Of a DNA stretch of 64,000 nt, positions 10,201-59,600 are shown in pieces. Every line of letters starts with the position of its first letter. Position 1 is the stretch's first letter. The notes under the pieces were generated by a model. The model worked only from the letters and a program-made list of their open reading frames with translations, was not told the origin of the DNA and ran no database searches. The DNA is taken from the NCBI GenBank assembly GCA_905160935.1, contig CAJHZI010000794.1:1322501-1386500 (forward strand). Direction: 5' to 3'. Both the position numbers and the translations under genes were made by a program. This DNA is from Enchytraeus crypticus (lineage: Eukaryota; Annelida; Clitellata; Enchytraeida; Enchytraeidae).

Positions 10201-12953
10201 CGTACTTGATCATTTCACTATAATGCATGTTTACTTTTTTTTACTTTTAGTCCTGCCATAACAACAACTGATAGGATCTCCCATGGTTTCGATATAACTC
10301 ATCGTCATCATCATCTTCTCTTGAATCTCACTTTAGCTAGGATCGGGATACGAATGGATCTTCTTTACTCATCTCTGTCTCGAAGCATACCATCAGTCAA
10401 TCCCCTATTTTAAACATATGCTTTTCTATATAGCTTATACAGTGATGGGCGCAATAGTGTTTTTAAAATATAAAATTATTTTCAAAATAGGAAGTACTAT
10501 TTTATTTAGAGGGCGCAGCTGTTACAGTGACGTACACTGAGCATTTCTTTGACTCTTCAGTGGAATTCTTATGAGTCTGAATGCTTTTATACGTCTCAAC
10601 TGTTATGGATCTCTCTTTCTCTCTCTGACTTTTTAATTTGGTATTGTAGACTTAGCTTGCTGTTAAATATTCTGCTTGAGACGCAGAATACATCGATGTA
10701 CCTGACATCGTCATCGAGTGAGGGAACTGACTTCTAGTGAATATTTAACTTAATGTTTGTAACTATTCAATGGTTCAGGTGAAAGCAGAAGAGGAATTGA
10801 GTGAAGGAACGAGTGGATCCGTGCTATGTAGCGAGGAGCTGTTTAAACGTCTAAATCACGTGACTGAGGTCACTGTTAGCGACCTCTATCTGCTGATGGG
10901 GAGAGAACTGGTGGCTGTGGATGAGGTTCCTGCTGGCAATGTTCTAGGTAAGGTCTACGGATGAAGATTAGCGTAATAATGTCGTTCTTGTTTTCTTCTT
11001 TTTTATTAAAAATTTTATTATATTTATTTTTTTATTATACTATTCATCATTATCTTCCCTTAAATCCCAGTTTAACCTGGGTCAGGATACGAATAGACTT
11101 TATTATCCATTCGTTTAAGTTTTGTGACAATTACTGGAGCCTAGGCGCTCACCAACCGAATGCCCTTTCTGACGTTGGTATGAATCTTAGTGCTTTAGTC
11201 GCCTTCTACGACACGTGCAGTCACCGGTTGGTCAAATTCTTCAAACGACCCGGACGCAATATGGGGAATTTTTGCTTGTGAACTTCTCATATAGAGTGCA
11301 CTAAGGTGTTTAATATTACTCTAGCTTAGCCTTAACGTGAAGAACTAGATACTTAACCGAAAGTGTATTTGGTTTTGGTACCGTGTTAAAAACTTCTTTG
11401 AAACGTGCTATGTTTAGGTATTGGTGGGCTGGCAGATTTTGTATTCAAGTCTGCGACACTGTCTAGTACGCTATCCTGCCCCGCTTTCACTGACATGTAT
11501 CAGGAGGCGGCGCCTATAGTGCGTGTCGCTGTAGAACCGACCAATGCCGGTAAGTCTCATTGGCTCATTCATACACTAGCATGTATCAGGAGGCGGCGCC
11601 TATAGTGCGTGCGCTGTAGAACCGACCAATGCCGGTAAGTCTCATTGGCTCATTCATACACTAGCATACACCAGGGGGCGGCGCCTATAGTGCGTGTCGC
11701 TGTAGAACCGACCAGTGTTCTGTTAGTTAGCTCTGTAATACAATCAGTGGTTAAATTTGAGGGAACGCAGGGGAATAGATCGTATTTTCTGAGTTGCTTT
11801 CTCCTGCTAGGTGCCCTTATTAGATACTAGGGGACGTGTAAATGCAGTACAGGGACTCAAAAAATTTTGACCGTTCCACTGCTCTCAATTCTCACTTTAA
11901 CCACTGTATTTGCTAATATATGCCAGAAGACGTTCAATTCATGTTACTGGAAAACTAGTCTCAGAAACAATAAGAGCTAGTGGAACTGAGTCCACTGCGT
12001 TCTCTCCAGTTTAACCACAGCATGCATATGCGACTGTAACATGTAATGTAGTAACCATGTTATGGAGGCGTACATACCTTGGACCTGCCAGTAGGCCGTG
12101 CAGAGAGAGAGATAGAGAGAGAAGGTATATACTGTACATGTGGCAAGTTTAAATAAATACCCAATTTAGATTTTCCATTTTCCGTATAACTAGTCTAATG
12201 AATGTCCGAGATTTTATTCTCAGATCAGCGTGGCTGGGATTCGAACCCAGGAAGGCTCAATTCACGTCAGGATCTGTCGTTTAAAACTTCATGACATTAC
12301 CCCGACGCTATTAAGACATTCTATGCGACTGTAACATATAAGTGTAATAGAGACGTATATACCTTGGACCTGCCGGTAGGCAGTGCAGAGAGAGAGAGAG
12401 AGAGATAGAGAGACTATATAAACGTCCCTGACATTGCCTTATGGCGAGGAACCGGACGTTAGATTCTTATTGATTGATTGATTGATTGACTAGACTTGTG
12501 TCTTTGTGTGTGTGCAGGAGATTTGAAGAAGCTGATAAGTGGCCTGAGACTGCTCAACCAATCAGATCCCTGTGTGGAGGTGTCAGTAGAGGAGACCGGG
12601 GAGTACGTTATCGTGGGGGCGGGGGAGGTCCATCTGCAGAAGTGTCTCGATGATCTCAGAGATAAGTTAGTACTAGAATATTATATATTAATAATTAATA
12701 TAAGAATATATAAGAATATTAATTTCAAGTCTACAACTGTGTTCTTAGGCCTAATTGTCCATCTCTTTCCGCCATAGGTCTTAATTTTGACCCGATTGCC
12801 TTGAATCATGGGCTTGCACTGTTTTGATCTCACTTTCTCTTTTGGTCTATGTATACTCAGTCGTCTTCGTGTGGTGCTTTGCGCCTGTTCGTGTAGAGTC
12901 TGCTAGAGACGTCCCTGATATTGCCTTTTGGCGAGGAACCGGACTGCATTTTC

Positions 12954-12987
<34 letters not shown>

Positions 12988-18151: not shown

Positions 18152-18238
<87 letters not shown>

Positions 18239-22244: not shown

Positions 22245-25200
22245 TCAAAGAAAATACTCTGCCTGGGGTTTTTTAGAGGGAACTCCTCGATTTTCCTGCA
22301 AAATAAATTCATGAAATTACAAACTTTATTGAATATGAACTGTTACTTGTGCAGTCATTTTTAAATACTATAATATATACTTTACTACTATTATTATTAT
22401 ACTATGATTTAACTAATTAAAACATTACTTATGAATTTAAAAGCGGATATATAGAACTTAAATGGCAACACCTATGCATGCATAACTTGCTATAAAATAT
22501 AAAAATTGCACATTTGAAGTAGATATCCAAAAATTAAGATAGCAAAATTTTTAAAAATATATATATAATTAAAAAAATTTAGACGTTTTTCTTATGAAAA
22601 CTCAAACTTTTGTAAGAAGGACTTACAAGAAGAAATTTATCTGAAGCATGCACAAAAACAGCAACTGAAGAATTACAAACATAGCCCTATAAATTCTAGG
22701 TGATATCTGAGTTTATATGCTATCACGCCTATATACACTAGCTTATCAAAGAATGAGTTGATATGCTATCAGGGTTATAGGCACTAGCTTATCAAAAAAT
22801 GAGTTCATAATATATGAGGGTTATATACACTAGCTTATCAAAAGAATTAGTTGATATACTATCACGCCTATATACACTACCTTATCAAAGAATGAGCTGA
22901 TATGCTATCAGGCTTATATACACTAGCTTAGCCAAAGAATTAGGTGATAAGCTATCAGGGTTGTAGGCACTAGTCTATCACGGTTACATACACTAGCTTA
23001 TCCAAATAATGAGTTGATAAGCCATCAGGCATATAGCCAGTAGCTTTTCAAAGAATGAGTTGATAAGCTATCAGGCATATAGCCAGTAGCCTTTCAAAGA
23101 ATGAGTTGATAAGCTATCAGGCATATAGGCAGTAGCTTATCAAAGAATGAGTTGATAAGCTATCAGGGTTATAGGTACTTGGCTATCAGACAGTTAACCA
23201 GCTTATCAAAGAATGAATTCTTTATTACCTGGGGAGCGGCTTCAAAGATTGTGAAATTCCTCTGAAGATGTTCGTCTAATTCAAGAATAGCAGCAACGTT
23301 GCCACATCTGTTCAAATAGTTAAATTATGTTAAATTGTTAAAAATCGTTCATAATGATACCATGCACTTTGATAAGTAATTTAGAAAAAGAACAGCGAGT
23401 TATGCAAGCCTTCAAACTTTGTGAAATATGGAATAACAGGCAATTTCACACAATACTACAGTACATTATGTTACAATAATTGATATTATATTTTACAGTA
23501 GATTATATCAGAAATTAAACCTACAATGTCAGCAGACGAAAACCCCTATTCTCCACTACACCAAAACACAACTTCTAATTATTATTATACCAAGTAATAA
23601 TCCGGAAATTAATTTAATCTGGAGTACAACAAGAAGCAATTAAGGAAAGGATACTAATGCACCTTCCAACTGCCTTATTCGGTTACATTTGACAGTTACA
23701 AATGATCTAGCAAGCATTGAATATAGGGAAAAAAATCGAAGTCAGCGGTAACAATTTTAATGATTAACAATTAACTGTCCGCTGATAAACGAACCTGTAG
23801 CAGTAGTTAGGAGCCGACCACACAGTCAGCACTGTCTCGTTGAAGTGCCACTTGTAGCCCTCCATGACCAGCTGATGGGCTCTACATATTAGATCAAGAT
23901 TGTTCGCAGTGTTGAACTGCTGCACGACGTCGCTACCAAACAAGTACCCCGCCCCCCTAGGTGACACACCCCAGCCCTGAGTGTCTGAATCAATCAATCA
24001 ATCAATCAATCAATCAGTCAATCGATCAAACAAGTACCCCGCTCCTCGAGGTGACACACCCCAGCCCTGAGTGTCTGAATCAATCAATCAATCAATTGAA
24101 CAATCAATATATCAAACAAGAACCCAGCTCTGAGTGTCGAATTTAAAAAAAAAATCAGACAAACAAGTACCCTGCTCCTCTTTCAATGATTCAGCAAAAC
24201 AGCACGTATTGCTTTAATCGTTTTCATCAAAATAATATAATAGTTAAACATCAATTCTGATAGTTTCCAGAACAACATCATAGATATAGACACTTCTGAG
24301 CAATACTAACCCTCAGGATCTGACCACAGCAGATCACACATTGGTCCATCGTGAGGCACCTCCTGTTTACGATCTATAGCTCTAATCTGATCCAGCGTCT
24401 GTATGGACGGCGACAGACCACCGTGCACGCAGAATATCTGCACAACAGAGCAACAGATATACAATAAGACCACCGTGCACACAGTATATCTGCACAACAA
24501 AGCAACAGAAATACAATGAGACCACCATGCACGTAGAATATCTGCACAACAAAGCAACAGAAATACAATCAGACCACCGTGCATGCAGAATATCTGCACA
24601 ACAAAGCACCAGATATACAATCAGACCACTGTGCACGCAGAATATCTGCACAACAACGCAACAGATATACAATGAGACCACCATGCACGCAGAATATCTG
24701 AACAACAAAGCAACAACAATACAGTGAGACTAAAAGCTGGTAAAGCTAAGGTTAATGTCAGTTTCCTCACTCGAAAGCAATGTCAGTGACGGGCGAGCCA
24801 AGGATTTGAACCCGCAACTACTGATCCACGGTCGAGTATCTTACCGACTTTGCCACTGGCTCCAGCCGACTACCGTGCACACAAAAGATAAGACTACCGA
24901 TAAGACTACCGTGCACATAAAATAACTGCACAGCATCGTAAAAAAAAACATTGACACACTACCGAGCATGAAGATTGCACAATAGTGCAAGAACAATACA
25001 CCGTGAGACTGCCGTGCATACAGAATAACTACACAACAGCACAAAAACAATGTCACTAATGCCTTCACACGATCAATGAAGATACAAAAACACCTCTGCC
25101 AATCAAATCCATCTAATTCTTACATCATAATTTCTGACACTGCTATATCAAAAACAAACAAAATAACTGCAACAAACCGCTAACAAAATACAAATACATA

Positions 25201-28200
25201 TGTAGGAACACTAAAACTAAAGTACACTGATAACATCAACTGTTAGTGTGCAAAACACGACACTTCTTTCGAAAAAGGAAAACAAAACCAAAGAGACTGC
25301 CGGATGTGCAGAAATTGACGTCCCTGACATCATCCTGATGTCCCTGACATCATCCTGACGTCCCTGACATCATCCTGACGTCCCTGACATCATCCTGACG
25401 TCCCTGACATCATCCTGACATCCCTCACATCATCCCGATGTCCCTCACATCATCCTTATATGAGGAAATGGACGTTAAACCTTTATTATTATTATTATTA
25501 TTATATGCAGAAATCTTCATACCGAGCCGTCAATGATGGCTGAGAGACTGAGGTAGTCAAATATCTCTGTGCAGTACCTCCACACCGTCACTGAGCCGTA
25601 CTTACGCAAGCACTCGTCGTAAAACCCGTACACCTGCGTGATCTGTCGACTCTCGTGATTGCCTCGTATCAATGTGATCCTGTCTGGATAGCGTACCTAC
25701 ACAATTAAACATGTAATTATTAATGTGATACTGTTAATTAAACACGTGATTATCAATGTGATCCTGTTAATTAAACACGTGATTATCAAAGTGATCCTGT
25801 TAATTAAACACGTGATTATTGACGTGATCATAGATTGTAGATTATAGTGATTATAGATTTACAGGATGTTATTTAAACACATGATAATTATCGCGTGTTT
25901 AATTAACAGGATCACATTGATAATCATGTGTTTAATTAACATGATCACATTGATTATAATTAATCAATGTGATCATGTTAATTAAACACATGATTATCAA
26001 TGTGATCCTGTTTTGATAACATATCTACGCATTTCAACATATCATTATTTATCATTGCAATCCTGTCAGGATAACGTAGCTGCACATACAAAATCATGCT
26101 TACCAATGCAGTCTAGTCAGGAAAGCATACCCGTCGACACATATATAAACACATGATTACCTGGTATTAATGTGATTTTGTCAGGATCTATCTACACATA
26201 TCCACACATGACTGTCTTCTATCAATAATCAATGGGATCATGATAGACCAGTAGCTGCATCAATATGAGCTACCGTGAAAAATGTTACACATAGGAACAA
26301 ATGGTTATATCAAATAAATATAAAAAATACAAGTACACATACAAGGTAATTATACAACTTGTTCTAATAAAATTTTTGTCATTAGTTGTGAAGAGGCAAG
26401 TCAAGACCAATTCAACTTTATAGAGCGCTATGAAGTTGTATTGATACTCAGATCTATATAAACTAATAAGATTTCACAACTTACAACAGGGTTTTTATTC
26501 AATACCTTAAAAATATATCAGTAGGTAAATAAGTAAGTGATTCAAACCAAGGCTAACCGCATCCGAATGAGAGATCAAAAAGACGTTAAACCAGATTTTA
26601 ATTCTTGTAAATAACCTTTAGTGCAAGAAGCAGCAGGAATGTCTCGACGCTATAGAAGCCTCTGTCGACAAAGTCTCCCATGAACAAATAGTTTGTCTCC
26701 GGTACGTCACCTCCAACCTTGAACAACTCCCGAAGGTCGTAGAACTGTCCGTGTATATCTCCACATACCTGAGTCAGCAAACAGCACGGCTTTATGCACT
26801 CAACACCCGAGCACTCAAGTCAACAGTTCACTGCTTTATGCACTCAATAATTCACTTGAGCACTCAAGTCAACAGTTCACCGCTTTATGCACTCAATAGT
26901 TCATTCGAGCACTTAAGTCAACAGTTCACAGCTTTATGCACTCGATAGTTCACCAGAGAGATCAAGTCAACAGATCACTGCTTTATGCACTCAACACCCG
27001 AGCATTCAAGTCAACAGTTCACTGCTTTATGCACTCAACACCCGAGCATTCAAGTCAACAGTTCACTGCTTTATGCACTCAACACCCGAGCAGTCAACAG
27101 TTCGTTCACTGTTTTATGCACTCAATACCCGAGCAGTCAAGTCAACAGTTCACTGCTTTATGCAGTCAACACCCGAGCACCCAAGTCAACAGTTCACAGC
27201 TTTTTAATTTAAAACTAGATGAAACAATAGGCTAGACAAAAAATCGTAAATCAATACAGTTTATATACAATTATATAATCTATATAATATAATCTCTATA
27301 ATATACACAATATACAGTATTCCATAATATATACAATTAAAAATCTAAATGTATATAAGAATTATAAAGAATACTGCAATTCGAGCATAATTGAAGACTC
27401 AATTAAAAAATATATATTTAAACAAGAGTTCTATTTCAAATCTCAATGTGCCAATTTTTTTCAACACAATGGAAAATTAACTCATAATTGCACAGTCATT
27501 ATAGGCTGAAATTTCAATGCAATAGGCAATATGTGATTTCAAAACTGAAAATTTCTATATTAGGCTAATGTTTCCGAGAACATCACTTGCTAAGCCAAAA
27601 TCTAAACGTATCAATTTCTTAAACTTAAAGTGTAACACAATGCAACATTGACTTCGAAAGGATACTTATAATATTTCAATGAAGCTAAAATATTAATTAA
27701 AAAATTTATTACACTATTATATCTAGTATATGACTGACTCCTTAAGAAATTTTCATTGCTTGAGTATAATTAAAACATATATAACTTAACAAGCCATTAC
27801 AAAAATTAGACATATTTGAGTACAAAAAAAACCTATAAAACCAATTACAAAAAAATAAATAAACATAAAAACAAACAAAAATAAATTAAAAGAAACAAAA
27901 ACAAATTTTAAAAAATAATTATAAAAAAAAATACAAAAACCTATGAAACCAATTATTTTCTATTAAATTCTTAACCATTTTAAAATAAATTATTAAGTCG
28001 TTTCGAGATAGTAGCGTACCGTGACGGGGGAGTCTATCCTCTGCACGTTGCTCTCTTCCACCAGGATCTCTCGCGCCTTAGCACACAGCGCCTTTACCTC
28101 ACTCTCCTTTATTATCTCACATCTCCTCAGCTGCTCTATCTGCCTGCAACCAATCAATTTATGACAATTTGAAATATCATCTACCATTTCAATATTAACT

Positions 28201-29255
28201 TTAATCTGAGCTGCTCTATTTGCCTGCAAACAATCAATTTATGATGACTTTATGCCATTTGAAGTATCATCTACCGTTTCAATGTTAACTTTTATATCAT
28301 TACTTTAACTTAGATATCATCTATCATTTCAGTCTTGCGTTAACTTTCTAAAACAGCATTCACATTTTAATTGCATAAGAAGCTCATGATCTAAAAGACG
28401 ACATTTTGTCAAAAGTGTTCAAGAAACTCTTGTACAAATTAAAAAAAATTTAATTTATAAAATCATACATTTGTATTACAATAATATCATATATTATGAC
28501 ATAATATTTATGTTACAATTATATTGCTATTATATAACTATTGTAAGAGCAAAATGGACCTTAAGGTTGTTGTATAAAACAAAAATTGCAATCTTGAACA
28601 AATCAACTTGCTTCAGCAAAAAATGAAACAACGTCCAGTTTAATTCCAGCATGAAGAACAATGAAATGTGAATAAATTACAGGCAAATTTGGCTGAAATA
28701 TCAAATCTACGGACGACTTATTAATGAAATAAAACATTCAGTTTCAGAGTCGAGATGCTACAATGGATTAACATGGATCAATAAAATTAACAGCTTTTGA
28801 TAAATTATAACAACTGCAAAAAATAGCGACCGTACACTGCCGTAAGGGGGGAGTAGGCAAAAAACTGAGAGAACACCTCAGAAGCCATACTTAGTTATGC
28901 TTAAGGCTAATTAAAGTTTGGTAAGGTCTTAGTCTATACGGTGAGACGAACTTGTTAATAAGTGAAGTGTCAAACTCGCATGAGTATAAATATGATCCTT
29001 ATTCACCAAAACACATAGCAGCAAGAACAGAACAGAAATGAAACAACCAACAAACAGAACAACAGAAATCACGGATCAACCGCCAAAGAGTCTGCAAGTA
29101 GAAAAATATAACTAAATATGTTTCACAGGTATTCAAAGACCTATCATTTGACAGAACACAAACAGAGGTATAAGATTAACAGAATATGTTTTCGTAAGAT
29201 CTCAAAATTATTTACAAAGATATACTTACCGGTCAAGATCACTCACATCACCCAT
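22245..29255 (-). CDS. PPP4C: PPP4C, protein phosphatase 4 catalytic subunit
   Basis: PPP4C is a PP2A-family Ser/Thr phosphatase acting in centrosome, DNA-repair and splicing-related complexes. Eight coding exons, 5' to 3' on the minus strand: 29255-29230, 28143-28020, 26768-26616, 25696-25523, 24437-24311, 23984-23795, 23307-23229, 22295-22245. They total 924 nt, 307 residues, the same length as the human protein. Catalytic motifs fall at the usual residues: GDIHG (53-57), GDFVDRG (81-87), GNHE (113-116), HGG (164-166) and RAHQL with its metal-binding His. The C-terminus ends YFL, the leucine methylation motif of PP2A, PP4 and PP6. The start [14 protein letters not shown] matches the family N-terminus. 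Introns next to exons 2, 4, 5 and 6 carry tandem copies of the exon edge. Confidence is very high. Confidence 0.97.
22730..23221. repeat. Minisatellite in the last PPP4C intron
   Basis: Eight to ten imperfect units of about 55-60 bases with CTTATCAAAGAATGAGTTGA and TAAGCTATCAGGCATATAG. The array begins about 8 bases from the exon 7 donor (23228). Confidence 0.85.
23940..24165. repeat. Tandem copies of the PPP4C exon 6 edge with acceptor
   Basis: The true exon edge (coding up to 23984, then the acceptor and an AATC run) is repeated from 24030 with period 90. The second copy keeps about 45 coding bases (GACACACCCCAGCCCTGAGT) and the acceptor. Degenerate third and fourth pieces follow near 24118 and 24160. 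Confidence 0.85.
24415..25060. repeat. 52-bp tandem array carrying the PPP4C exon 5 acceptor and coding start
   Basis: Six copies start at 24415, 24467, 24519, 24571, 24623 and 24675. The first is the real exon edge, whose coding sequence begins IFCVHGGL at 24437. Each copy has about 23 exon bases, the AG acceptor and 29 intron bases. The array is interrupted by a SINE-A (24731-24868). It continues as degenerate copies to about 25060 (ACTACCGTGCACAC, ACTGCCGTGCATACAG). Confidence 0.92.
24731..24868 (-). repeat. SINE-A inserted in the exon-derived array
   Basis: A complete minus-strand copy (GCTGGTAAAGCTAAGG to GCCACTGGCTCCAGCC). It is flanked by the short matches GACTA (24726-24730, GACTA at 24869) that may be the target duplication. 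Confidence 0.8.
25312..25505 (+). repeat. Core-D repeat, tandemly expanded
   Basis: The first 20 bases (GACGTCCCTGACATCATCCT) occur about seven times in tandem. They then run into GAGGAAATGGACGTTAAACC and an ATT tail. The tail ends 17 bases from the exon 4 donor of PPP4C (25522). Confidence 0.85.
25665..26230. repeat. AT-rich array with degenerate copies of the PPP4C exon 4 edge
   Basis: The exon 4 start in plus sense reads AATGTGATCCTGTCTGGATAGCGTAC, with the acceptor at 25697-25698. Beyond it AATGTGATCCTGTTAATTAA recurs at about 43-bp spacing, partly in inverted orientation (25905-25975). Later units keep more exon-like sequence (GATCCTGTTTTGATAAC, AATCCTGTCAGGATAACGTA, GTCAGGAAAGCATACC). 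Confidence 0.6.
26770..27215. repeat. Minisatellite beginning at the PPP4C exon 3 acceptor
   Basis: About eight units of 50-57 bases with GCTTTATGCACTCAACACCC and AAGTCAACAGTTCAC. The first, diverged unit (GAGTCAGCAAACAGCACGG) overlaps the acceptor of exon 3. Open frames here are artefacts. Confidence 0.8.
27216..28019. other. PPP4C intron 2, distal part, nothing recognised
   Basis: Very AT-rich sequence with A-runs near 27820-27940. No repeat family or coding region was identified. Confidence 0.4.
28131..28290. repeat. Tandem duplication of the PPP4C exon 2 edge
   Basis: The exon 2 start with its acceptor (CTGCTCTATCTGCCTGCAAC, 28131-28150) is repeated at 28211 (CTGCTCTATTTGCCTGCAAA). The shared intron part is CAATCAATTTATGA, ATCATCTACC, TTTCAAT and TTAACTTT. 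The period is 80 bases. Confidence 0.85.
28291..29229. other. PPP4C intron 1
   Basis: AT-rich intron with a diverged LINE family B scrap (28845-29000). No other feature was recognised. Confidence 0.45.
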
Positions 29256-31790: not shown

Positions 31791-31853
31791 CCTTTTAAGC
31801 AGCATTCAAAGTTTTAAAATGTATAATTAAAATAACTGAAGCAAATAGCATAG

Positions 31854-32054: not shown

Positions 32055-35000
32055 CTAAATACAGCAAATATTTTCTGCTTCTGCTGCACATGCCTCTGCA
32101 GCAGCTGCAGCAGTACCTTCCATAGCTGGCACACGAGAAGCAGCTGCTCTGCCAGCATCGTCGCATTCGCTATCCGCTGCATCACGGAGTGGATCACTAT
32201 CTCTAGAACCAGTACACTTGTCATAGCTGGGCGGAATGATAGCCACGACTTTCTTGCAGAATGACGTCACAGCGTCGTCATTCGGCTTGCCCAGGTAAGC
32301 ACACGGAGCAATTAAGCGGTCCCTGCGCAGTGTCGGCGCCAGTTTGGTTATCTTTACCTCAGGCAGCGCGCCTTTGAGATCTATCTCACGCCGCAGCCGT
32401 GGATGTAGCTTCCCGATGGCAAATTTTTCTGTTATCTCGCGAGTTTTTCTTTCCAATTCCGCCTCGGCTTCCAAACCTTTGCAGAACATGCGTTTCAGTT
32501 CTCTGCTTTCTTCGTCTCTCAGGCGATCGCTGTAGTGGACTTGACTGATAAGATCTGAACCGTAGCGGAATCGATTCTGCTTTTCCCTCTTCGTCTCTTC
32601 CGCTCCGATGAGTGCCTCCTTCTTTTCCCTCTCCAGTCGAGCTTCCACCTGCCGACACCCCGCTTCCACTGCTCGAGCCTTTCTTTCTTCCTGAAATAAT
32701 ATGTGACCATAAATAACTGTATAACATATGACCGTAAATAACAGTTGAACATGTGACCATAAGTAGCAGTATAACATATGACCATAAATAACAGTTTAAT
32801 ATGTGACCATAAATAACAAAAGAACAATTGACTGAACAACAGTATAAAAACGACCATAAATAACAGTATAACATGTGACTAAATAACAGTATAACGTATG
32901 ATCATAAATAACAGTAGGCTATAACATTTGACCATAAGTAACAATATATGCATTTATGCATTTATTGTATTTTAACGTTGTATCAGAGTACTCTACGTAT
33001 TGTATTATATTGACGTATTTATTGTATTTAGTTCACCGGGTTGTGTCCAGGTTGTTTGAAGATTTGACCAACCGGTGACTGCACGTGTCGTAGACGGCGA
33101 CTAAAGCACTAAGATCCATACCAACGTAAGAAAGGGCATTCGGTTGGTGAGCGTCTAGGCTCAAGACATTGCTACAATAATTTAAACGAATGGAAAAGTC
33201 TCAAATAGAGGATTAACTGATGATATGATGTAGGACATAGAGGATTTGAGACAATCTATTTGTATCAAGGCCCTAGTTAAACTGGGATTCAAGGGAAGAT
33301 AATGATGATTGTATTTTACATAGGTTGTATCTGTACGTAGAATCTCGAACGTAAAAGGAGCTTAAATAGGTAAGGGATTATAGACTGCCTAAGGTGGAGA
33401 ATCTGTGACATTATGAGCTACAAATATCATAATGATTATATCACTGAATGTCTAACCCCTTACACAACTACTTTATATCACACAATTCAGTCTAACCCCT
33501 TACACAACATTCTTACTATCATATACCACACAATTTAGTCTAACCCCTTACACAAGGTTCTAACTACTTTATATCACAAAATTCAGTACCTTATCGTTCA
33601 TTTGCTTCAGATGATTTCTCACACAATCCCTCAACAGCTGATCGCTGATCTCTTCTCTTTTTCTCATCTCCTCATCTTTCTCTCTGTTAGCCCTTTCCAC
33701 TTCCGCAGCACAGAGTCGATCCTTCTCCATCTCTAATCTCTCTTGATCTCTTCTCTTTCTCATCACGTACTCCCTGTAGAGATGCTGCTCTCTCAGCAGC
33801 TCTATCTGTAGCAAACAGGTTTAAAGTTGTACATTGTACGGGAGTTGGTATCAGAATTGAAAGAATGTGTCAATCAATCAACAATCAATCAATCAGTCAG
33901 TCAATAAATCAGTTACTAAATCCATCAATCAACACAAATTTAGCAGCCGATTCTTCGCCAAACGATTGCCAAATGTCAGGGACATTTCAAGCCGATGTTT
34001 GTTTAAAGTTATAAATTCTACGAGTGTTGATTTCAGAATTGAAAGAATGCGTCAATCAATCAATAAATAAATCTATAAATCAATCAATCAATTAATTAAT
34101 CAATCAGTCGAATAATCAATCTATCGATCAGTTAATAAATCAATCAATAGGAATTTAGCATCCGATTCTGTGCCATAAGAATGCCAAATATCAGGAACGT
34201 TTCAAGCAGACTCTGTGTTATCAGAAGCCAAAGCACCACTCGATGACGACTGAGTATAAAAATGTTAAAAGATGACGATGACGTCTGAGTATAAAAAGAT
34301 CGAAAGAGACCACCTGGGTGCGTGTGATTTAAAGACAAACAGACGTGGCATAAGTTATCGACTTGAAATTTGTTAATATACATGTACGTATGCAACTTTA
34401 TACAACTAACCCTGCTGAACGAGCACTACACGATACTGATGATCAATTAATTTGAAATCTAATAATAAAACATGACTTGCTCAGTAATTAATGGTTGAAC
34501 GAGCGCCAAACAAGTTCCAACGTCCTAACATTGATAATTACACATATTTCTCTCTCTTAGTGCACTTCCTACCGGCAAGTCCACGGTATATAACGTCTCT
34601 ACTCTTCTCTGTCTGCCGCTTTCCTTTTCATTTTCACATATGAGTGGGTCTTTAAATCATCTAACATAACTAATCTCGGCCTGCTCCTGCAATTTCACCT
34701 ATATAAAATGCAATTACGCATATATAAAATAACAAAACGTTAAATTAATTAATCGCAGAGTTAATCAATCAATCAGGTGCAACGACAACCTTGCGCTGTT
34801 GTTGTTGCTTTGCCTGTTCTGATTGACCGGTGAACAGTCTCTCCAGATGACCGAGATCAAACGTATCCTCCTCCAACAGCTCTCGACCAAGGACGGCCTG
34901 CCTCTCTCGAATACCTCTCTCGTAGACCTGCTTGAGTGCCTCCTTCTCTCTTTGCCTCTCCCTCAACTCCTCCTCATGTTGCAGCTGCATCAGAGCTACC

Positions 35001-38000
35001 TACAGTGCGACACAGTCTTCTTTATAGGCTGAAGATAAACACTGAGTTACCGTGGCAGGGTAGACAGGATTGTTTTCTCAGGGAATGACGCCCCTGACCA
35101 GTGAATGTTAGTCGAAACTGAGGAAGGCATAGGAGGTCCATCTCTTCATAAGCAGAATCCCCCAATAATAATGGTATATCACCAGGAATGTATAAACAAT
35201 TTAAAGATCCCCTTGTGGACATGAAGCGAATGACGGTAGATAGAAATGAAAAGAGGCGCTATATACCATGGACCTGCCAGTAGGCAGTGCTCTAAGAGAG
35301 AGACCCTGGCAGGTGCTTGTTCTACTCACTGGTTTGCTTTAAATAAAAACTACGGCTTTATGATGTTACCATAACATGTTTCCGTATTTGATTCTATATC
35401 TTAGATGACAAATGGTAGCCATTCCAAGCCGCAGACACACTGTTACAGATAAGAAATCTACTGTCAGACTTACATGTATAACTTACATGTATACCTTCAA
35501 AATGTTCAGTATAGTCCTACATTATAGCTTCCAGAAACCAGAAGCTAAACTCTATAAAATGCTTAATATTGACAAAAATGACAAGTGACAAGCAAACAAG
35601 AGGAAAGCAAATCTACGTTTTAACGTCTAGTTGCAGGGCCAAGTCGATAGCGCGCTAGCCTACTGCATTTCATTCCAGCCTTACTGACTCTGATATGTAA
35701 CATATGAAAAAACAGATGCCATTCTTTGATTTACAAATGGTATCGGTGCACTAACTATACATCACAAACGCACAAACTTACCGATCATTTAAATTTGATT
35801 CATTTTGGTTAAATATAAGCTTAACTACATTAACTGCTTAATAAATTCTCTATTTCTCTCTCTCGTCGTACACTGCCTACTGGCAGGTCCATGGTATATA
35901 ACGCCTCTCCTCTTAATTAATTAAATAATATAAAATATTCAGTATGAATGAATGATGGTGTACAGTGAGTATACCAGATCAAGTCTATCCTGTTGTTCTT
36001 TTTTCTTCTTTTCCTCGTCCTTCATTCTCTTGCTCTCCTTCTCTTCTATCTGCTGCCTCAGCGTGCTGGCCACAGACTTTGCCTTCTCTCGCCTCGTCCA
36101 CTCCACCACCTCTTCCTTGCAGGTTCTGGCTTGTGTGTCTGCGCATTTAAGCTCCGCCCAAATTCTCTCCTCTTCCTTGGCTGCCTCTCTTCTCAACTCT
36201 TTCTCCTTCATCTGCACCAGCCTGTCCTGTGCCACCTACGACATTAATCAAGTGATACAATCAGCAACGAGGAAGAATGAGGAAGGCAACGGGAAACCAC
36301 CTCAGATGCCATATTTTTCCCAAGCTATAGGCTACATAAGTTATGGATAAGGCATAGACTTTGAAAGGATTAACTTGTTGGCATAAGGAGTGCTCTTATG
36401 GAGTGAGAAAATAGACATTGAGTGTGAATATGTACTTTGAACCTGACACTTGTCAGTGCACTAAAGAAGAAGAAGAAGACAATCAGCATTCAACGTCCCA
36501 TTCTTCACCCAAAGGCGCCAATAGTGACGTCCCAGGCAGTGTAAGCATGTATCTAGCTAAGGCGCAGTGAATATTATTCATCGGCTATGACAGTATAATT
36601 ATTTGCGACAATGAGGCAGATATTGAACTAATATTTATTTAAATTTCCATCTCTTTTGCGCAGTGAATACTAACAGAAGAGAGAGTGGATTTATAGAATG
36701 CAAGTCCATTAGTCAAAGCTTGCATTCCATTGCTGCCGTTTACAATCGATCTTAGCATTATTAAATTCCTCAATCGTATATCAATTTAAAACAAATAGTA
36801 TATTATCTACATTTATGCTACAATTAAATTAACATCTCACGACAAAATCTCGAACATTCACTGGACTGGTTATACGGAAAGTGAACTAAATTGCCTAATG
36901 GTTTAAACATGTGATATCAAAAGTGAACGATATCAATATAGTTGATCACATCACTATAATGCGAGTTTAAACGAAGCTTTGTAAGGTGAGTGTACATGTT
37001 TAATAGCACACTATGCAAGAGTTTGTATTCCTATCTTCACTGATGTAAACATGTAGTTTAAAACTTTTAAACGAAGCTTTGTAAGTTCGAACCCTCTGAG
37101 TGAGAAGGTCTGACTGTTTGGCTCTCAGAGAGTCATTCTGACTCAACAGTTGCTGCATCAACTTAGCCTGCACCAGCCTCACTCTCTCTTCCTCCTTCCT
37201 GTTCCTCAGTTCCTTCAGTCTGTCCCTCATCTGCGCTGCCCTGTCCTCGGCCTTAACTTCCATCTCAGAGATCTGCCTCAGATTGGAAGCGTCTTCCTCA
37301 GCCAGAAGGCACCTGAGCTGATGACGACGTCTCTCCAGTACGCACTCGTCCACCTTGAGGGCTGTAGCCACCTTCTCCCTGGTCAAATCAGGTGAATAAG
37401 TGAATCAATCAATCAGTTAATCTGCAGATACCTTCTCTCTGGGCAAATCAGGTGAATAAGTGAATGAATCAACCAGTTAATCTGAAGACACCTTCTTTCT
37501 GCTCAAATAAGGTGAATAAGTGAATGAATCAATCAGTTAATCTGCAGATACCTTCTCTCTGGGCAAATCAGGTGAATAAGTGAATGAATCAATCAGTTAA
37601 TCTGCAGATACCTCCTCTCTGGTCAAATCAGGTGAATAAGTGAATGAATCTATCAGTTAATCTCCAGACACCTTCTTTCTGGTCAAATCAGGTGAATTAG
37701 TGAATGAATAAATCAGTTAATCTGCAGATACCTTCTCTCTGGTCAAATCAGGTGAGTAAGTGAGGGAATCAATCAGTTTATTTAGCCATAAATGAATTTA
37801 GTCCATAAGTAAACAATCACCAAGTTGCAGTTGTTTCGTACTTATGTTACAATGACCAAAAACTTATATTAGCCAATCAGATAATTATTTACTTGTGCAT
37901 GATTCAGCCAATCAGTTATTATCTCAAGAGATAAGTAAAGATACCAGTGAATCATACCATACCACAAAGATGCCATAGGTCATCTTTGGAACTGTCAGCG

Positions 38001-40695: not shown

Positions 40696-40697
<2 letters not shown>

Positions 40698-43554: not shown

Positions 43555-43586
<32 letters not shown>

Positions 43587-44730: not shown

Positions 44731-44773
44731 GGTTTTTCTTGTCTCACGAAGCTACCAGAATATAGCTAAACAT

Positions 44774-44786
44774 TGTTGCTAGGGAA
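44774..44786 (-). promoter_or_regulatory. RFX X-box-like site
   Basis: The minus strand reads GTTCCCTAGCAAC, an imperfect inverted repeat close to the RFX X-box (GTNRCC, short spacer, RGYAAC). It lies 44-56 bases before the start codon of the proposed gene. RFX factors drive ciliary genes, which fits a RII-alpha-like ciliary product. Confidence 0.45.
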
Positions 44787-45034
44787 CCCGATCCCGTGTA
44801 ACCTAGCTGTTCTAAACCCTGAAATTAGCTGAAATAGTCTTAAAATAACCCATTTATTAAAGGAGAAATGAATCCTGTTAAAACCCTTAATGGCCACCTG
44901 TTAACGAAGCTCAATAGCAACTAAATTTTATTTGACACCCTTAGCATACATTCTCTAATTCAGCTTATCTGTAGTATACTAGCTATGCCAATTAATATTA
45001 GCTTTATGAAAAATAAAAACAACAATGATAATGC

Positions 45035-45188
45035 TACAGTCGCCAGTGACAAAATCAAGCAATATACTTTGGACTGAATTTCTGAATTTTGGAATTTGCA
45101 CCGTTTTTGGACCTTCATTTTTTTGCTCGCCGGCTTAATTTTGTCCCAATAGTGTTCGATGTTGTCATTGATGACTGTAGCACTCTAA

Positions 45189-45244
<56 letters not shown>

Positions 45245-45245
45245 G
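45035..45245 (+). mobile_element. CR1/L2-like LINE 3' tail
   Basis: ACTTTGGACTGAATTTCTGA, GGAATTTGCACCGTTTTTGG and GTTGTCATTGATGACTGTAG, then a long TTA microsatellite tail. It lies downstream of the MAB21-like stop codon. Confidence 0.85.
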
Positions 45246-45478
45246 AACGAAAGTCAATCCAACGAACAAATCGTACAAAACGTACAAACGGTACGAACCC
45301 AATATTCGAAAACGAGCCTAAGATCTGAGATAAGAAATTATATGGTAGCGTAGCTTTGGAACTATGCAGCTTTCGGCATTTTGAAAACCCCGAATGGACC
45401 CAATGCTACATATAAGGAACAAACAAGTTGTATTAAATAGAATGTTTTAATAGAAAATCTAACAATTTTACATCTCTG

Positions 45479-48324
45479 TCACAATTTTTCCAGACATCGA
45501 GGATTTGTCAATAATTCTCGAAGCAGTCGCCATGCTTGTTTTGCCGCATTATCCAAAGAAGTCGTTGATTTACCGCGAAACAGATCCATACCGGGCAGGA
45601 AATAGTGAGGACACCTTCGATTCTGCAGACAGGAAATCAACTGGAGCAGTATCCCGTTAATCCTATCACCCATGCAACACTCTTCCCACTCTAGTTCCCT
45701 CGGATGTTTCTCGCACTCGTACAGCACTAAAGCTTTTATGTGTATGATCTCGACAGGTTGTCCGGGTAGGTCGAGGTGCTTGTCCCTCAGAGTCTTCAGG
45801 ACGCTGTAGACCTTCTTCCTGCTTCCTCCGTAGAGAAGGGTTGACTCTGCCTGGTGGAATGAGATCAGCCAGGCGTCTCCCTCAGTGGTCGTCTGCTTGT
45901 CCAGCCTTTAATATAGTAATGTTATACACTGGATGACTGTAGACTAAAGTATCTTAAATTTCATTATTTGTAAATTTGATACAATTTATATCAACATCAT
46001 CATCTTCCCTTAAATCCCAGTTTAACTAGGGTCGGGATACGAATAGATCTTCTCCAATCCTAAAGACTTTTGAAGTTTTTCCATTCGTTTAAATTTTTGT
46101 AGCATTTCTGGAGCCAAGGTGCTCACCAACCGAATGCCCTTTCTGACGTTGGTGATGCTATTTATATAATTTTTAAAAATTTTGATCCAGAAGGTAGATC
46201 CCTATATGTCGGCAAGTTTATTCTATGCATGGTGTACGGTGTCACTGTGAAAATAAAACGCCTATCTACAGTATAATAGACCCCTGAACACATTAACAAT
46301 CAACACATCGTCGTTGGCTGGAGCCAGTGGCGATGTCGGAAGATAATCGACCGCGGATCAGTAAGTTAAGGGCTTCAAATCTTGAGCTCTCCCGTCGCTG
46401 ACATCGCTTTCGAGTGAGAAAATTGACGTTAACACTGGCTTTAGAATGAGCTTTTCAACCATTCTTGTGAATCTCGGAGATTTCACTCTCAGATCAGCAG
46501 TACCACAAATCGAACCTGCGAGAGTTCAGTATACCTAAGGATCTCTCATTTAAAACTTCATGACGTTATCAACACCTCTAACCGCAATGCTATTGCGACA
46601 GTTGTTAGGTGGTTCAAAATGGACATAACTTGTGTAAATGTACATAGGAACGATTTATTTATGTTTTACTATTCATAAACATCACAGTAACCGACCTGCA
46701 ATATGAACTTTCCTTGGACAGCAGATCAAATCCCTCAGCCTTTATTTCTGCCACGAGACTGGGCGAGGGCCACTGAAGATGCAACGAGGGCCAATCGCAT
46801 GCACTCCGGGGCCAAATCCCGGAGCATCGGAATGCGGGAGTGATCTGGACTGTGTAACGATCCTTGACCTTCAGTTTGACCTCCGAAGTCTCGGATATTA
46901 GCTTTAAGCTCGCAGAATTAGACTCTGTTTTACCTGTAGCAAAATAGGCGCATAGGTAGTAGTAAAAATAGTAATATTTGTAGCCTACTACGTCCCTTAT
47001 TTTGAATACAAGTGAAAAGAAAGTTTTATGATGCGTTTAACTTTGTAAAGAACGTAAAATGTCAATCACTATAAATTGTATATTTGGAATAAGCCAGCCA
47101 ACTTCCAAGATACAATCATTGTCAAGCGAATAATTTAATAGTAGTAAAATTGTAAATATTAAATACTATGTAGGTCAATAATTATACTGATATATGATTA
47201 AGATATATAGGACTATTTCAGTTGCGGTATGCATAACGACAGATGTTTCTGACGAATTTGACGAGGAAATGGATATGGAAATAGTTCTCGATACTATTGG
47301 TATACAATGTTTTCATCCAACCTAAATAGAGCAAGCATTATCACAGCAACCTGTGTACTTGTCTACGGCCTGAGCCACGAGAGTTTGAAATCTGGAGCGA
47401 ATCTTTCTGGCTGAGAGGTACCCGGATGCGGTGATGAACTCGACCCAGAGGGACATGGATCTCTTCCGCCCATCGCTCAGCTTCAGCACGGCGCATCCCG
47501 GCACTGCCCCATCATCCACGAAGTTAAACACCCCCATCTGATTGAGGTACAAGATTACCTCAAACTGTAGCATAAACCAGTGTACATGCATTATACTCAT
47601 CATCATCATCATCGTCGTAGTCGTCATCATCATCATCATCATCATCATCATAATCATCGTCGTCGTCGTCGTCATAATCATCATCGTCATCATCATCATT
47701 ATCATCGTCGTCGTCGTCTCGTCATCATCATCATCATCATTATCATCGTCATCATCATCATCATCATCATCATCTTCCCTTGAATCCCAGTTTAACTAGG
47801 GTCAGGATAAGAATAGACTGTCTCAAATCCTCTCTGTCCTACATCAAATCATCAGTCAATCCCCTATTTGAGACTTTCCATTCGTTTAAATTTTTGCATC
47901 AATTTCTGGAGCCTTGGCGCTCACCAACCGAATGCCCTTTCTGACGGTGGTATGGATCTTAGTGCTTTAGTCGCCTTCTCTACGATACGTGCAGTCACCG
48001 GTTGGTCAATTCTTCAAACAACCCGGACACAATACGAGGAAAATATCCATTACTTAATTTTCTATAATTAATTACCTAATATTTTCATACCATTTATATC
48101 AATACCTCTGTCGGTGAAATCACTCTTAGCCCTTCGTAATGACCTCCACTTTCTGTGAGAGAGCTGACAAAGCGGGGCTCGTGCAGTTCAACCTCTTTGA
48201 GAACCTCCTGGACAACCTTGCAGATCTCTCTCAGGGACCGAGCTATGGCAGACCTTCGACCTTCCACCCTCTCTGCCTGAAACTGGTTCAGCTGATACAT
48301 CATCCGAGTTTGAAGAGCCAACAT
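45479..48324 (-). CDS. MAB21L: MAB21-like protein (MAB21L1/MAB21L2 family)
   Basis: MAB21-like proteins have a cGAS-type nucleotidyltransferase fold and act in eye, neural and body-wall development; no enzymatic activity is established for MAB21L1/2. Four exons join: 48324-48106, 47564-47351, 46933-46696, 45905-45479. They total 1098 nt, 365 residues (human 359). Long stretches match the family: KEVELHEPRFVSSL, YLNQMGVFNFVDDG, CAVLKLSDGRKRSMSLWVEF, SARKIRSRFQTLVAQAVDK, SGIWPRS, LKTLRDKHLDLPGQP, YECEKHPRE, GILLQLISCLQNRRCPHYF and the final LEKL. Human MAB21L1/2 have no introns in the coding region; here there are three, with the first exons best conserved and the middle (exon 3) diverged. The start MLALQTRMMYQLN aligns with the human start. 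Confidence 0.96.
45992..46605. repeat. Repeat cluster in MAB21-like intron 3
   Basis: Family C (45992-46158, plus), SINE-A (46315-46445, plus: GGCTGGAGCCAGTGGCGATG, GGATCAGTAAGTTAAGGGCT, GACATCGCTTTCGAGTGAG) and a minus-strand SINE-B (46465-46605). Confidence 0.8.
46934..47350. other. MAB21-like intron 2, nothing recognised
   Basis: AT-rich sequence with no repeat family or coding potential that I can identify. Confidence 0.4.
47590..48035. repeat. (ATC)n microsatellite and family C repeat in MAB21-like intron 1
   Basis: ATC/GTC triplets (47597-47775) lead directly into the most complete family C copy (47776-48035). This shows that the triplet array is the expanded tail of that element. It starts about 30 bases from exon 2. 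Confidence 0.88.
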
Positions 48325-49562
48325 CCTAAGATCGGGGTAGTTTAGATGCTGTTGAACAAAGACAATCGGTCTGTAATAGATACGTATTGGTCTCGTAAAG
48401 GGGTTGCAGTTGAATCATATAAAGTCATTGGCAGATCATTTTAGCAAAATCTAAAATTGAGCCTATGAGCTGGTAGCATGTTGGCCAAGTTGTCTGACTG
48501 CGGATCAGTAGGTGCAGGGTTCAGATCTAGTGCACATATAGTCACTGATACGCTCTTGAGATAGGAAACTGACGTTAAACTAATCCTTTTAGCCTTTAAA
48601 TTGAGTGGGACTGAGCACAGTGGGATTAGCACATTAGGATTGAACTAAAAACCTGTGTTTAGATTAAAGTTTGATCAAGAAACTGCCATGCAGCTTCGAT
48701 TAAAGATTTGTAAAGATTTGAATAATTTTATTTATAGTTTTTAATCATGGGGAATGAAATCCTAAATATTACAATTTATTGTAGTGTATTATAAGTGTCA
48801 TTGCATTGTATTTTTGTACTGTATACTGTAATGCAATTAACTAGTACTATTATGTTTACTGTAGCCTAAGTACTTTACTGCATTGCACTATTATTAATTG
48901 TTACTGTATTGTATTGCATTTTATTGTATTATATTGTAGTTTAATGCACATGTATTGTAATGCATTATTTACTTTTCATTGCATTGCATTTTATATGGCA
49001 TTGCACTCTATTTTATCGTACCGTATTTATTCGAATTATATGTTAGTGCAATGTGTTGCATATGCACATGTATTGTACTGTTTTGTACTATTTAGCATTC
49101 TTGTGCATGACTTTATAATTCTTTTAACCTTTAATGAGCGATAGCGTAACATTACTTTATTCATATAAAAATGCGTGACAACTTATAATGTTATATCTAT
49201 TTTGTTCAATTATTTTGGTGACTTTTCTTAAAACATTGCGCATTTTGTTAATTTAAAAGGATTATGTATTTGTTAAATTATACCGAACCTTTTTTCTATA
49301 AAAATAAGTAAATATCTTGATTAAACGATGCAATCCTTATCACTTTTATCAGGTCTACGCTAGATCTAAGTTGATAAGCGATAGTCTGATATTTGCAGGT
49401 TACTGAGTCCTATAGGCAGTCCCGTGCAAAATGATGGACAACGAAAGAAATGCTCTGATTGGTTGATAGAGGCGACCGGAAGTCCTAGCTATCCAATCGT
49501 CTTGGATTGACCGCAACATCGGGATGTGAACCGAAGTACACGACTGTCAGGGTTATGGGATT

Positions 49563-50758: not shown

Positions 50759-50794
50759 AGTATGGATAGTCGATCGTTAATCCAGTAAAATTTG

Positions 50795-53537: not shown

Positions 53538-53610
<73 letters not shown>

Positions 53611-56600: not shown

Positions 56601-59600
56601 TTATATATATAAAATCTTATATATGATTTCTATTATGTAGCTCTCTTATTTTCAGAAATATGAATGTTGCCTTTATGGTGCTCTTGTATATATGGAATTC
56701 TATTAGTTTAAATTTCTTATAATTTATGATTTACATATATTTCCTTATGCTTCTAAAAAGTAGGTATTTTCGATGCAAATATTTATATGGCTTCTAGAAA
56801 ACGCTTTTTATTCTGGATTAATTATTTTGTATTTTCTTACATTATCTTGAGAATTATTTAACGTTGTTTTTACACTAATGAGACTTATTTATTTATATTT
56901 TCCTTTGTTATTTTCTTATTTATTCTGGTGTAACTTAAGTCATTGGTAAACTATGTTCTTGCCTAATTTATAATATTAAGCGTGCCTTAAGGACAATTAT
57001 GTATTTGATGCATATATCGGCATTGTTAATTTTTATCATGACTTGTTTGTACATTGTAGATTCATGCACCAATATACAATCTGAATCCTATGATCACAAG
57101 GCAAAGGTATGCCTTAGTTACTACATGACAGAACAAAATTTTTGAAATGATTTAGGAAGATTAATGAATAGATACTGTAATATTCATGGATAATTTTTAA
57201 AAGTGTTGTGGGGATTCATGTTAAATTTAATTTTTTAAATAGTTAAAAAATAAAATATAATTAGCTTCATTTTAAATATACTTGTTGTTATTAAATGAAC
57301 AATATTATGTAAAGGCTAAAAATGTAATTAAAGTATTCGTAGAATTCTTAAAGCCGTCTTATTGGCTGATACTTCATCTTAAATCAAAGCAAAACTTGAG
57401 CCTCGTGTATATCTAGAATTATAAATAGAGAATTGCATATTAAAATATATGGTAGTGCATTATCCTCTATTTTCTGCCTCAAGTCTGGTGCTTTAAATAG
57501 GAAAAATGTTTGAATTTTGAGCCTTGCACAAATATTTTTAACTTTTTATTAGGAAAAGATATTATGTTATTGTAATTTAATTATAATTTTAGTTGATATT
57601 TAATTCAGGAATAAAATAGTTTAGTTTAGGTACTCTGAAAGGAAATATATGATATATTCAGTATAAACATGGACAGACTTTTGAGACAATAAACAAACAT
57701 ACATCTTACTTTTCTTTAGAAGTCTACTGTTAATCGATGTTTGTTAAAAAGCTGGTAAAGCTAATGTTAACGTCAATTTCCTCACTGGAAAGCGATGTCA
57801 GTGACGGGCGAACCCAGAATAGAGGGACTGTTATAGACACACTGTTCGTTGCTGTTATATATTTTGCAGCCTGTTCATTGTCTATTGCAAATATTGTAAA
57901 CAGTTTATTGTTTGTTGTAGATATTGCAGACTATTTGTTGTTTGTTGTAGATATTGCAGACTATTTGTTGTTTGTTGTAGATATTGCAGACTATTTGTTG
58001 TTTGTTGTAGATATTGCAGACTATTTGTTGTTTGTTGTAGATATTGCAGACTATTCGTTGTTTGTTGTAGATACTGCAGACTATTTGTTGTTTGTTGTAG
58101 ATATTGCAGACTATTTGTTGTTTGTTGTAGATATTGCAGACCATTTGGTGTTTGTTGTAGATATTGCAGACTATTTGTTGTTTGTTGTAGATATTGCAGA
58201 CTGCTCTACCTAGATCTCTCTATGGCCTCTGTGACAGTGGAAGGCTTAGAAGAGATTCTCTCACAATGCTGTTCTCTATATAAACTCAGTCTGGAAAACT
58301 GTCAAGTCAATGACGCCATCTGCAGGTATATGCTGACAACTGACGTCCCTGGCGTCATCCTTGTATGAGAAAACGGACGTTAAACCTCTATTACTATTAT
58401 TATTATTATAACGATTTCATCAGTTAGTTTACATTGCCTTTTACTATTTTAATAGATCTGAAAGTTTTAGCATATTATGCTCTATTTGATATACCATCGT
58501 TCTGCATTTCTATTATTTTTTAAAATAGTTAAGTTGTAATATGCTCACTATTCGAAATACAGAGTTTTGCATTTTTTATCTTTAAAATTGTTTAAGCTGT
58601 AATTTACACGTTATTTGGTGAATCGTATTTTTATCAGAATTTAACTTTTTCATCATATAAAAACATATGGCAGGAGTAGTTATAAAAGCTAAAGATATAT
58701 TTTGATCTCCGATTAAGTTTTACTATAAATTATATTTATATAACTTAAGTATTATAAATTTATATGTATTTAATATTTAAGGCGTGAATAATGAGTAATT
58801 TGTTTATCATTACGGAAAATCTAATTTAGTTGTGGTGTTTTGCATAAATCATATGCTGGATATTCTCCCTAATATTATATATCAAAATACAACTGAAGAA
58901 AAGCTGCAGATATATGTCAAGCTTAATAAATATTAATAATAAAGGTTTCACGTCTGTTTCCTCATACAAGGATGCTGTCAGGGATGGCTTATGGTATATA
59001 GAGTAGATGGAACTAATAATAATAAAATAAGACTATCTTTAGAGGTGAAAATGAATCAAAATCACCAGACATATGAAAAATGTTGGCTATTAAATTTTTA
59101 AAGCAATGACAAATAATTAATTAATGAATTTTATATAATTTACTTCTGTTCTGCTCGTGTATAGGTACATTGGGCAGAACCAGTATTTGCAAACTCTCAA
59201 TATGGCGCTGTGTCAGGGTCTGACAGAAAATGCTCTCGTGCCTATCTGCAACAATCTGCAGCGGTAACTCTGACCAGAATTATTCTCTATCTCTCTATTT
59301 CTCGTTCTCTCTTTCTTTCTCTCTCTTTCTTTCTCTCTCTCTTTTGAGTTGATAAAATTTACTTGTCTAAATGACAGATTAATTTTTTTAACTGACGTTA
59401 TTATCAGTTATTATTCTAGTCATTTTCAAATTGGTTTATTGTCTGTCGGATCGGGTGAGTCACTGATTGATTCTTTAACTGATATATTTACTAATTTATT
59501 GATGTATTGGCTGTTACATGGTTTAATCGATTGATAGCTTGCTTGGTGATTGATTAATTGAGTGACAGATTGCTTGACTATCGATAGATTGACTGTCTTA

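Follow-up and report, generated by a model that had tools for sequence, protein, structure and literature searches.

Minisatellite-like tandem duplications of intron-exon boundaries, named "mirages", have been described in the amphioxus globin genes BflGb6 and BflGb9 and were earlier reported in Adh3 (PMC3087553), with further lancelet cases in PGBD5 and troponin C (PMC3902484). According to the accessible sections of the globin study, the copy number of the BflGb6 mirage varied between haplotypes, reverse transcription polymerase chain reaction suggested regular splicing, and it was proposed that new introns can arise from mirages (PMC3087553). The present work concerns comparable arrays in an annelid, Enchytraeus crypticus, found in the genes EFL1, PPP4C, CFAP53 and SKP2 of a 64,000-nucleotide (nt) stretch of its genome (C696:1322501-1386500, hereafter the window, whose positions are used throughout unless another contig is named). 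An initial annotation had pointed out these junction-crossing arrays and held that no described system matched them, a view that the amphioxus reports overturn. With exons of further genes included, 69 in all, an array crosses the acceptor in 20 and the donor in 4 (p = 0.0015), in counts for which most exon edges are approximate, being limits of profile matches or reading frames, and only those of PPP4C and CFAP53 are near exact. A lancelet curiosity of few genes would be matched by frequent and polar arrays in the genome of a second, distant animal.

Comparison with described systems

In both lineages, tandem minisatellite-like units cross the intron-exon boundary, several copies are present and AG or GT is kept in many of them, as far as the consulted parts of the lancelet reports describe them (PMC3087553, PMC3902484). 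A boundary-crossing unit occurs in E. crypticus at 19 acceptor loci with exact edges, and donor cases are found in EFL1 and on contig C620. Both boundaries are affected, as in mirages, with a strong lean towards acceptors, and the units of 30-109 base pairs (bp) fall within the mirage range of about 10-160 bp. The host differs, being an annelid, as does the presence of crossing arrays at 20 of the 69 examined acceptors; no acceptor lean is reported for amphioxus in the portions of the literature examined. Splicing and length variation have been tested in amphioxus, whereas the E. crypticus arrays are known from the sequence of a single assembly. The arrays, called ladders below, can be classed as mirages with considerable confidence.

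Within the literature searched, no annelid report of splice-crossing arrays was found. An earthworm metallothionein intron has minisatellites, for which splice-site crossing is not described in the available parts of the report (PMC12783039), and another match (PMC6823432) concerns group II introns, judging from its accessible portion, and resembled the subject in wording only. As far as this literature shows, the kind is known and the phylum is new, and neither the prevalence nor the polarity was found reported.

Other systems share some of these features. Minisatellite growth inside genes is common to the ladders and to the internal tandem repeats of human segmental duplications, which, in the sections consulted, are apparently not centred on splice junctions (PMC2812944). 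In potato, an RdRp gene gained an intron via a duplicated segment which, like the units described here, spans an acceptor and includes branch site, polypyrimidine tract, AG and exon start; by the available account, however, a new intron arose there from a single duplication and RNA reads were to hand, whereas multi-copy ladders lie inside an old intron here (PMC4974935). The duplicated module is the raw material of this documented route of intron gain, and differently aged ladders would let its steps be counted.

Introner-like elements consist of one family copied to many loci. They likewise involve a repeated sequence linked to introns, but the repeats here are local, with exon-edge copies beside their own exon, and no dispersed family is seen: the 32 chaperonin exons examined below give best scores of 20-37 bits against the introns of the other chaperonin genes and up to 121 bits against their own. 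NAGNAG tandem acceptors, in which two AGs a few nt apart give small in-frame variants, differ as well; adjacent copies are spaced 30-109 nt apart here, and a stop would follow use of most of them.

Splice-crossing arrays in the window

The four gene names were upheld by protein alignments (PPP4C with PP2A; EFL1, CFAP53 and SKP2 with PDB chains), in which the exon-proximal copy continues the conserved protein, as had been annotated. Tandem Repeats Finder (TRF) returned 115 rows for the window, and units of at least 20 bp merge into 32 arrays amounting to 8.7% of it. Comparison of repeats with gene models bore out that six arrays named initially cross an exon-intron junction, recurring in the four genes with units unrelated between cases. 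Five of these six units hold an acceptor and that of EFL1 holds a donor. The crossing arrays, with an older one in PPP4C, are as follows.

11494..11714, plus strand: EFL1 donor-crossing array; unit of about 85 bp with about 56 nt of exon, the donor and 29 nt of intron; exon 11418-11549
28143..28260, minus strand: PPP4C acceptor duplication; unit of 80 bp, one upstream copy with its exon part from 28223; exon 28020-28143
25697..26187, minus strand: older PPP4C array at an acceptor; worn acceptor and exon-start copies, with a 33-bp array at 25703-25819; exon 25523-25696
24415..24730, minus strand: PPP4C acceptor-crossing array; unit of 52 bp; exon 24311-24437
23937..24106, minus strand: PPP4C acceptor-crossing duplication; unit of 90 bp with at least 48 nt of exon; exon 23795-23984
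37370..37778, minus strand: CFAP53 acceptor-crossing array; unit of 60 bp, six upstream copies; exon 37093-37378
57904..58202, plus strand: SKP2 acceptor-crossing array; unit of 30 bp, ten copies; exon start 58191

The EFL1 array has two extra copies, which lie downstream of the real donor. The 80-bp case in PPP4C is a two-copy duplication absent from the TRF list. As initially described, the units combine exon bases, splice site and intron bases, but the intron part drops below the 29 nt given as its minimum (about 19 nt in SKP2). In the older PPP4C array, the 33-bp repeat contains exon-derived sequence and worn exon-start copies reach 458 nt upstream of the exon; copies of very unequal wear adjoin between 25697 and 26187, as though this ladder had been renewed repeatedly. 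In SKP2, positions 59789-59812 repeat, over 24 nt and at 92%, the beginning of the coding segment at 60050, from which they lie 238 nt upstream; they are perhaps a worn acceptor copy.

Further arrays had been said to abut splice sites, which they do, at 4, 10, 2 and -1 nt from the junction in the order given here.

22708..23174, minus strand: PPP4C abutting array, 46 bp; starts 4 nt from the donor of exon 23229-23307; no clear exon sequence
26785..27203, minus strand: PPP4C abutting array, 44 bp; ends about 10 nt before the acceptor of exon 26618-26768
32696..32916, minus strand: CFAP53 abutting array, 25 bp; ends about 2 nt before the acceptor at 32690
33450..33587, minus strand: CFAP53 abutting array, 48 bp; reaches the donor (-1 nt) after exon 33590-33805

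Genes sampled without regard to repeats

Further exons were located by protein profile alone, because the window finding had been picked for its repeats. A search of the genome with the Cpn60_TCP1 profile gave 57 matches, and five of nine multi-exon clusters (CCT and Hsp60 genes) were taken with their sequence unseen beforehand. Eight phosphatase-family loci were added, for a total of 69 exons, comprising 29 from the window, 32 chaperonin and 8 phosphatase exons. For exact-edge analyses, AG and GT edges were set by hand in 45 exons. A 200-kb block of contig C370, which is gene-poor and has 19 predicted exons scoring at least 8, several of them of low complexity, was kept out of the counts. The sample consists of seven genes with exact edges together with approximate edges in others, and is not the genome.

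Among the chaperonin exons, a copy of the 5' edge lies upstream on the same strand for 11 of 32, and a 3'-edge copy lies downstream for 2 of 32 (at least 26 bits), the weakest of these copies (27 and 29 bits) lying within the control range and resting on their position. As controls, the opposite strand gave best scores of 17-26 bits and the introns of the other four chaperonin genes 20-37 bits, with 4 of 32 above 26. An acceptor-crossing array is present in 14 of the 27 intervals between recognised exons of these genes.

Polarity of the arrays

The lean towards acceptors is found outside the window (15 of 40 acceptors against 3 of 40 donors crossed, p = 0.0075) and in the chaperonin exons alone (14 of 32 against 1 of 32, p = 0.001); within the window alone the difference is not significant (5 of 29 against 1 of 29, p = 0.22). 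Duplicated bases other than simple repeats were also counted around the 69 exons. Upstream of acceptors their share of the intron is 35-42% within 100 nt, compared with 15% at 300-400 nt; downstream of donors the corresponding values are 13-23% and 18%. Within exons their share is 27.5% in the first 20 nt and 6.4% in the last 20 nt.

Random placement was assessed in 38 intervals (41,680 bp, median 928) of seven genes, namely the five chaperonin genes, PPP4C and CFAP53, with EFL1, SKP2 and the phosphatase loci left out. These intervals hold 56 arrays, of which 38 are intron-only, 17 cross an acceptor and 1 crosses a donor. Under a null of founding duplications (60 bp, at the within-intron rate), 1.6 crossings are expected per side, a number with which the single donor crossing agrees and which the 17 acceptor crossings far exceed (P = 2e-12). 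In the 27 chaperonin intervals, with 25 intron-only, 14 acceptor-crossing and 1 donor-crossing arrays, numbers that a recount reproduced, the expectation is 0.98 (P = 4e-12). Doubling the lifetime of exon-anchored copies gives P = 2e-8 for these genes, and adding a 110-bp founding unit raises the expectation to 4.4 (P = 0.0002). When the identity and overlap thresholds were varied in ten combinations, P for the chaperonin genes remained at or below 2e-6 and that for the two window genes ranged from 0.016 to 0.11. At least four chaperonin intervals (on C795, C368, C620 and C385) are long, skip profile positions and may hide unrecognised exons; crossings at such exons were counted as intron-only, so that this bias works against the acceptor excess.

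A coverage null, in which whole arrays are shifted circularly, expects 8.8 acceptor crossings where 18 are seen (P = 0.0005), and donors, with 1 crossing, look depleted under it. Depending on which null is applied, acceptors are in about tenfold or twofold excess; the difference between the two edges holds under either. The initial annotation had treated both exon edges alike and had judged the frequency of arrays to be far beyond chance. The excess is at acceptors (17:1 in the 38 intervals and 20:4 among the 69 exons), for which the judgement holds, whereas donor crossings are in keeping with founding duplications placed at random.

Ladders are not tied to intron length or to upstream donor score, nor do they occur at weaker acceptors (score 6.7 versus 7.0, p = 0.7). 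In the 38-interval test, 6 intron-only arrays end within 25 nt of either edge. Simple repeats account for 15-16% of the bases within 40 nt before acceptors versus 1.5-5% after donors, and TTGA tracts form many of them. Tetranucleotide tracts of TTGA or TGAC are frequent in the last 40 nt of introns at the chaperonin loci and in the window, and, set against the branch-point consensus, they resemble strings of branch-point motifs.

Anatomy of the duplicated unit

At the 19 acceptor loci, the copy closest to the real junction includes an exon part of 7-79 nt (median 28). The unit extends 15-49 nt into the intron at 14 of these loci and 62-298 nt at the other 5, where intervening copies were probably missed. 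The region 15-49 nt before an acceptor is the usual place of the branch point and polypyrimidine tract. The spacing of adjacent copies, taken from TRF and from the copies themselves, runs from 30 bp (SKP2) to 109 bp (C795 exon 6), and the acceptor scores of upstream copies are mostly near that of the real acceptor. Most upstream copies appear to be complete acceptors, with branch points presumed from position.

In upstream copies that can be aligned, the AG is almost unchanged. From a first collection of 58 upstream copies, 50 from 16 loci were kept where the alignment itself spans the junction; overlapping matches were removed from the counts, and SKP2 contributes 4 of its copies. In these 50 copies, 0 of 100 AG bases are changed, where dinucleotides drawn at random from nearby positions in those copies lead one to expect 10.3 (P = 0.0004), while at other AGs within them 23 of 220 bases differ. 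The AG is absent in 7 of the 58 copies of the looser set, where the intron half no longer aligns, and these are 7 of the 8 that were omitted. A second set, gathered with a longer query and a different score limit, has 55 copies from 19 loci; in it 1 of 110 AG bases is changed against 10.9 expected (P = 0.0019), and mismatches amount to 133 of 1293 bases in the exon part and 89 of 1199 in the intron part. Tested by locus in this set, the AG differs from the exon part (p = 0.007) and from the intron part (p = 0.011), and the two parts do not differ significantly from each other (p = 0.13). Constraint on the upstream acceptors is suggested by these counts, not proven.

Mismatches of the upstream copies at the three codon positions stand at 9.6, 5.4 and 15.9%, values that fit drifting upstream copies together with a real exon changing mainly at silent sites. 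It had also been stated that outer copies diverge more. No age gradient outward along the ladders was found at the 12 loci with at least two upstream copies, the nearest copy resembling the real unit more closely than those farther out at 6, less closely at 5 and equally at 1.

Choice of acceptor

Use of an upstream copy would be followed by an in-frame stop in 45 of 55 cases. The ten open copies belong to C795 exon 5, C620 exon 5, the PPP4C exon 24311-24437 and SKP2; in the first three, parts are open but out of phase, with one PPP4C copy in phase. In the SKP2 array (57904-58213), the exon's own frame is open and the length is a multiple of three, and an upstream acceptor would yield in-frame repeats of 10 residues with no stop. 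Coding inserts derived from upstream copies are unlikely in most cases because of the stops, SKP2 being the place where one is possible.

The stops lean against productive use of most upstream copies, and the protein alignments run continuous with the exon-proximal copy; together they make the latter the probable productive one. The spliceosome would most likely use the last of several near-equal acceptors, and the principle of exon definition would allow choice of the acceptor nearest to the downstream donor. Each ladder would constitute a natural competition test among near-identical acceptors, in which RNA reads could measure the choice.

Origin and persistence of the ladders

In the explanation favoured here, the ladders are mirage-type minisatellites made of duplicated acceptor modules, the proximal copy is the one used, and acceptors are subject to a bias in founding or persistence; taken whole, this account has about an even chance of being correct. 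Tandem duplication would carry the acceptor module (intron end, polypyrimidine tract, AG and the first 7-79 nt of the exon) into the intron, where the resulting array would then enlarge by slippage or unequal exchange. Splicing would take the exon-proximal copy, which has kept its own module and is nearest to the downstream donor, and the upstream copies would be skipped or their products degraded. The polarity would follow if founding duplications at 3' splice sites were more frequent or longer-lasting than elsewhere. The anatomy, the prevalence in the examined genes, the acceptor polarity, the stops after most upstream copies and the AG retained in alignable copies are direct observations; use of the proximal copy, the mode of growth and the cause of the polarity are inferences. 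The account is favoured by the crossing counts set against expectation, the make-up of the units, the stops, the continuous protein alignments and the like anatomy of amphioxus mirages, for which regular splicing was suggested. As causes of the polarity, duplication bias, selection and splicing-coupled copying are ranked in that order; duplication bias as its main cause is given a likelihood somewhat short of even.

A number of observations weigh against this explanation. In the phosphatase loci alone, 1 of 8 acceptors and 2 of 8 donors are crossed, and the polarity is not seen. Among intron-only arrays, 16 are nearer to the acceptor and 22 to the donor, with no preference for the former. Simple repeats within 80 nt occur at 7 of 18 sites with a ladder versus 7 of 26 without (p = 0.51), a result that points to no trigger of the duplications. 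A pure duplication bias would not predict the spared AG of upstream copies, and use of the exon-proximal copy is deduced from sequence. A bolder proposal, that a continuing acceptor-specific process, either splicing-coupled or selected, copies the 3' splice site, so that at the end of a large share of introns the spliceosome meets a ladder of intact acceptors and must always choose the last, is put forward tentatively and considered unlikely.

Selection could maintain the ladders if spare or recruiting acceptor modules raised the rate or fidelity of exon recognition, which comes close to the back-up splice sites suggested initially as one candidate cause, slippage at exon edges being the other. 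The sparing of AG in both copy sets, with its locus-level contrast to the exon part, leans mildly in this direction, as do upstream acceptor scores mostly near the real one. The exon and intron parts, on the other hand, do not differ significantly by locus, the looser set includes copies without AG, ladders are found neither at weaker acceptors nor in longer introns, and use of an upstream copy would mostly yield a stop. Taken together, selection is regarded as a rather unlikely explanation.

Splicing-coupled copying is less probable. The module would be copied via a splicing intermediate or an RNA-DNA hybrid and rejoined beside its source, for example by reverse transcription of a lariat-exon intermediate halting near the branch point. 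The confinement of the excess to acceptors would agree with such a route, as would an intron part that at most loci matches the usual branch-point distance while the exon part varies. A like intron length would be expected, however, if a module had to contain a branch point of its own to be tolerated, and no direct RNA trace was seen, although no search was aimed at one.

Random tolerated duplication, with arrays arising anywhere in introns and some crossing junctions by chance, ranks slightly lower still and is improbable. It accommodates the donor crossings, and it gains from the coverage null, under which the excess is only twofold, and from the larger founding unit with doubled lifetime; yet the chaperonin acceptor crossings stand above every null tried, and the two edges differ at 17 versus 1. 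An assembly artefact, with the extra copies produced by assembler stutter, is very improbable even for a PacBio and Illumina hybrid assembly, as the available description has it (PMC8460440), and for tandem repeats, which are hard to assemble, since about 9% of the bases aligned between the copies and the real unit are mismatched (223 of 2602), the copies having substitutions and indels of their own, and such copies are present in six of the seven exact-edge genes. The ladders are a likely source of wrong exon starts in the annotation and assembly of E. crypticus, a soil-toxicology model.

Other features of the window and genome

A Mab-21-like gene lies on the minus strand at about 44000-48400, between CFAP53 and SKP2, with a Mab-21_C domain in a piece at 45.5-45.9 kb; a further piece at about 48.1-48.4 kb had no Pfam match. 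Frames resembling reverse transcriptase or other retroelement fragments were noted by eye at about 927-1920, 8030-9357 and 31231-31794, and tRNA-like short repeats were seen in the same manner elsewhere.

Partial COX1 matches with stops occur outside the mitochondrial contig, on C361, C424, C796, C373 and C166, and are possibly nuclear copies of mitochondrial DNA. Amphioxus was considered as the source of the sequence and rejected: lancelets have GFPs, whereas the genome gave no GFP-family match, a null that by itself does not prove absence, and the mitochondrial gene order given below fits E. crypticus. The published E. crypticus genome measures 525.2 Mb with 35.4% GC, and its mitochondrial gene order is described, in the portion of the report consulted, as nearly Lumbricus-like (PMC8460440). 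On the mitochondrial contig C802, where frames were named by reading and the large-subunit rRNA was located, the order is cox1-cox2-atp8-cox3-nad6-cob-atp6-nad5-nad4L-nad4-rRNA-nad1-nad3-nad2, all on one strand.

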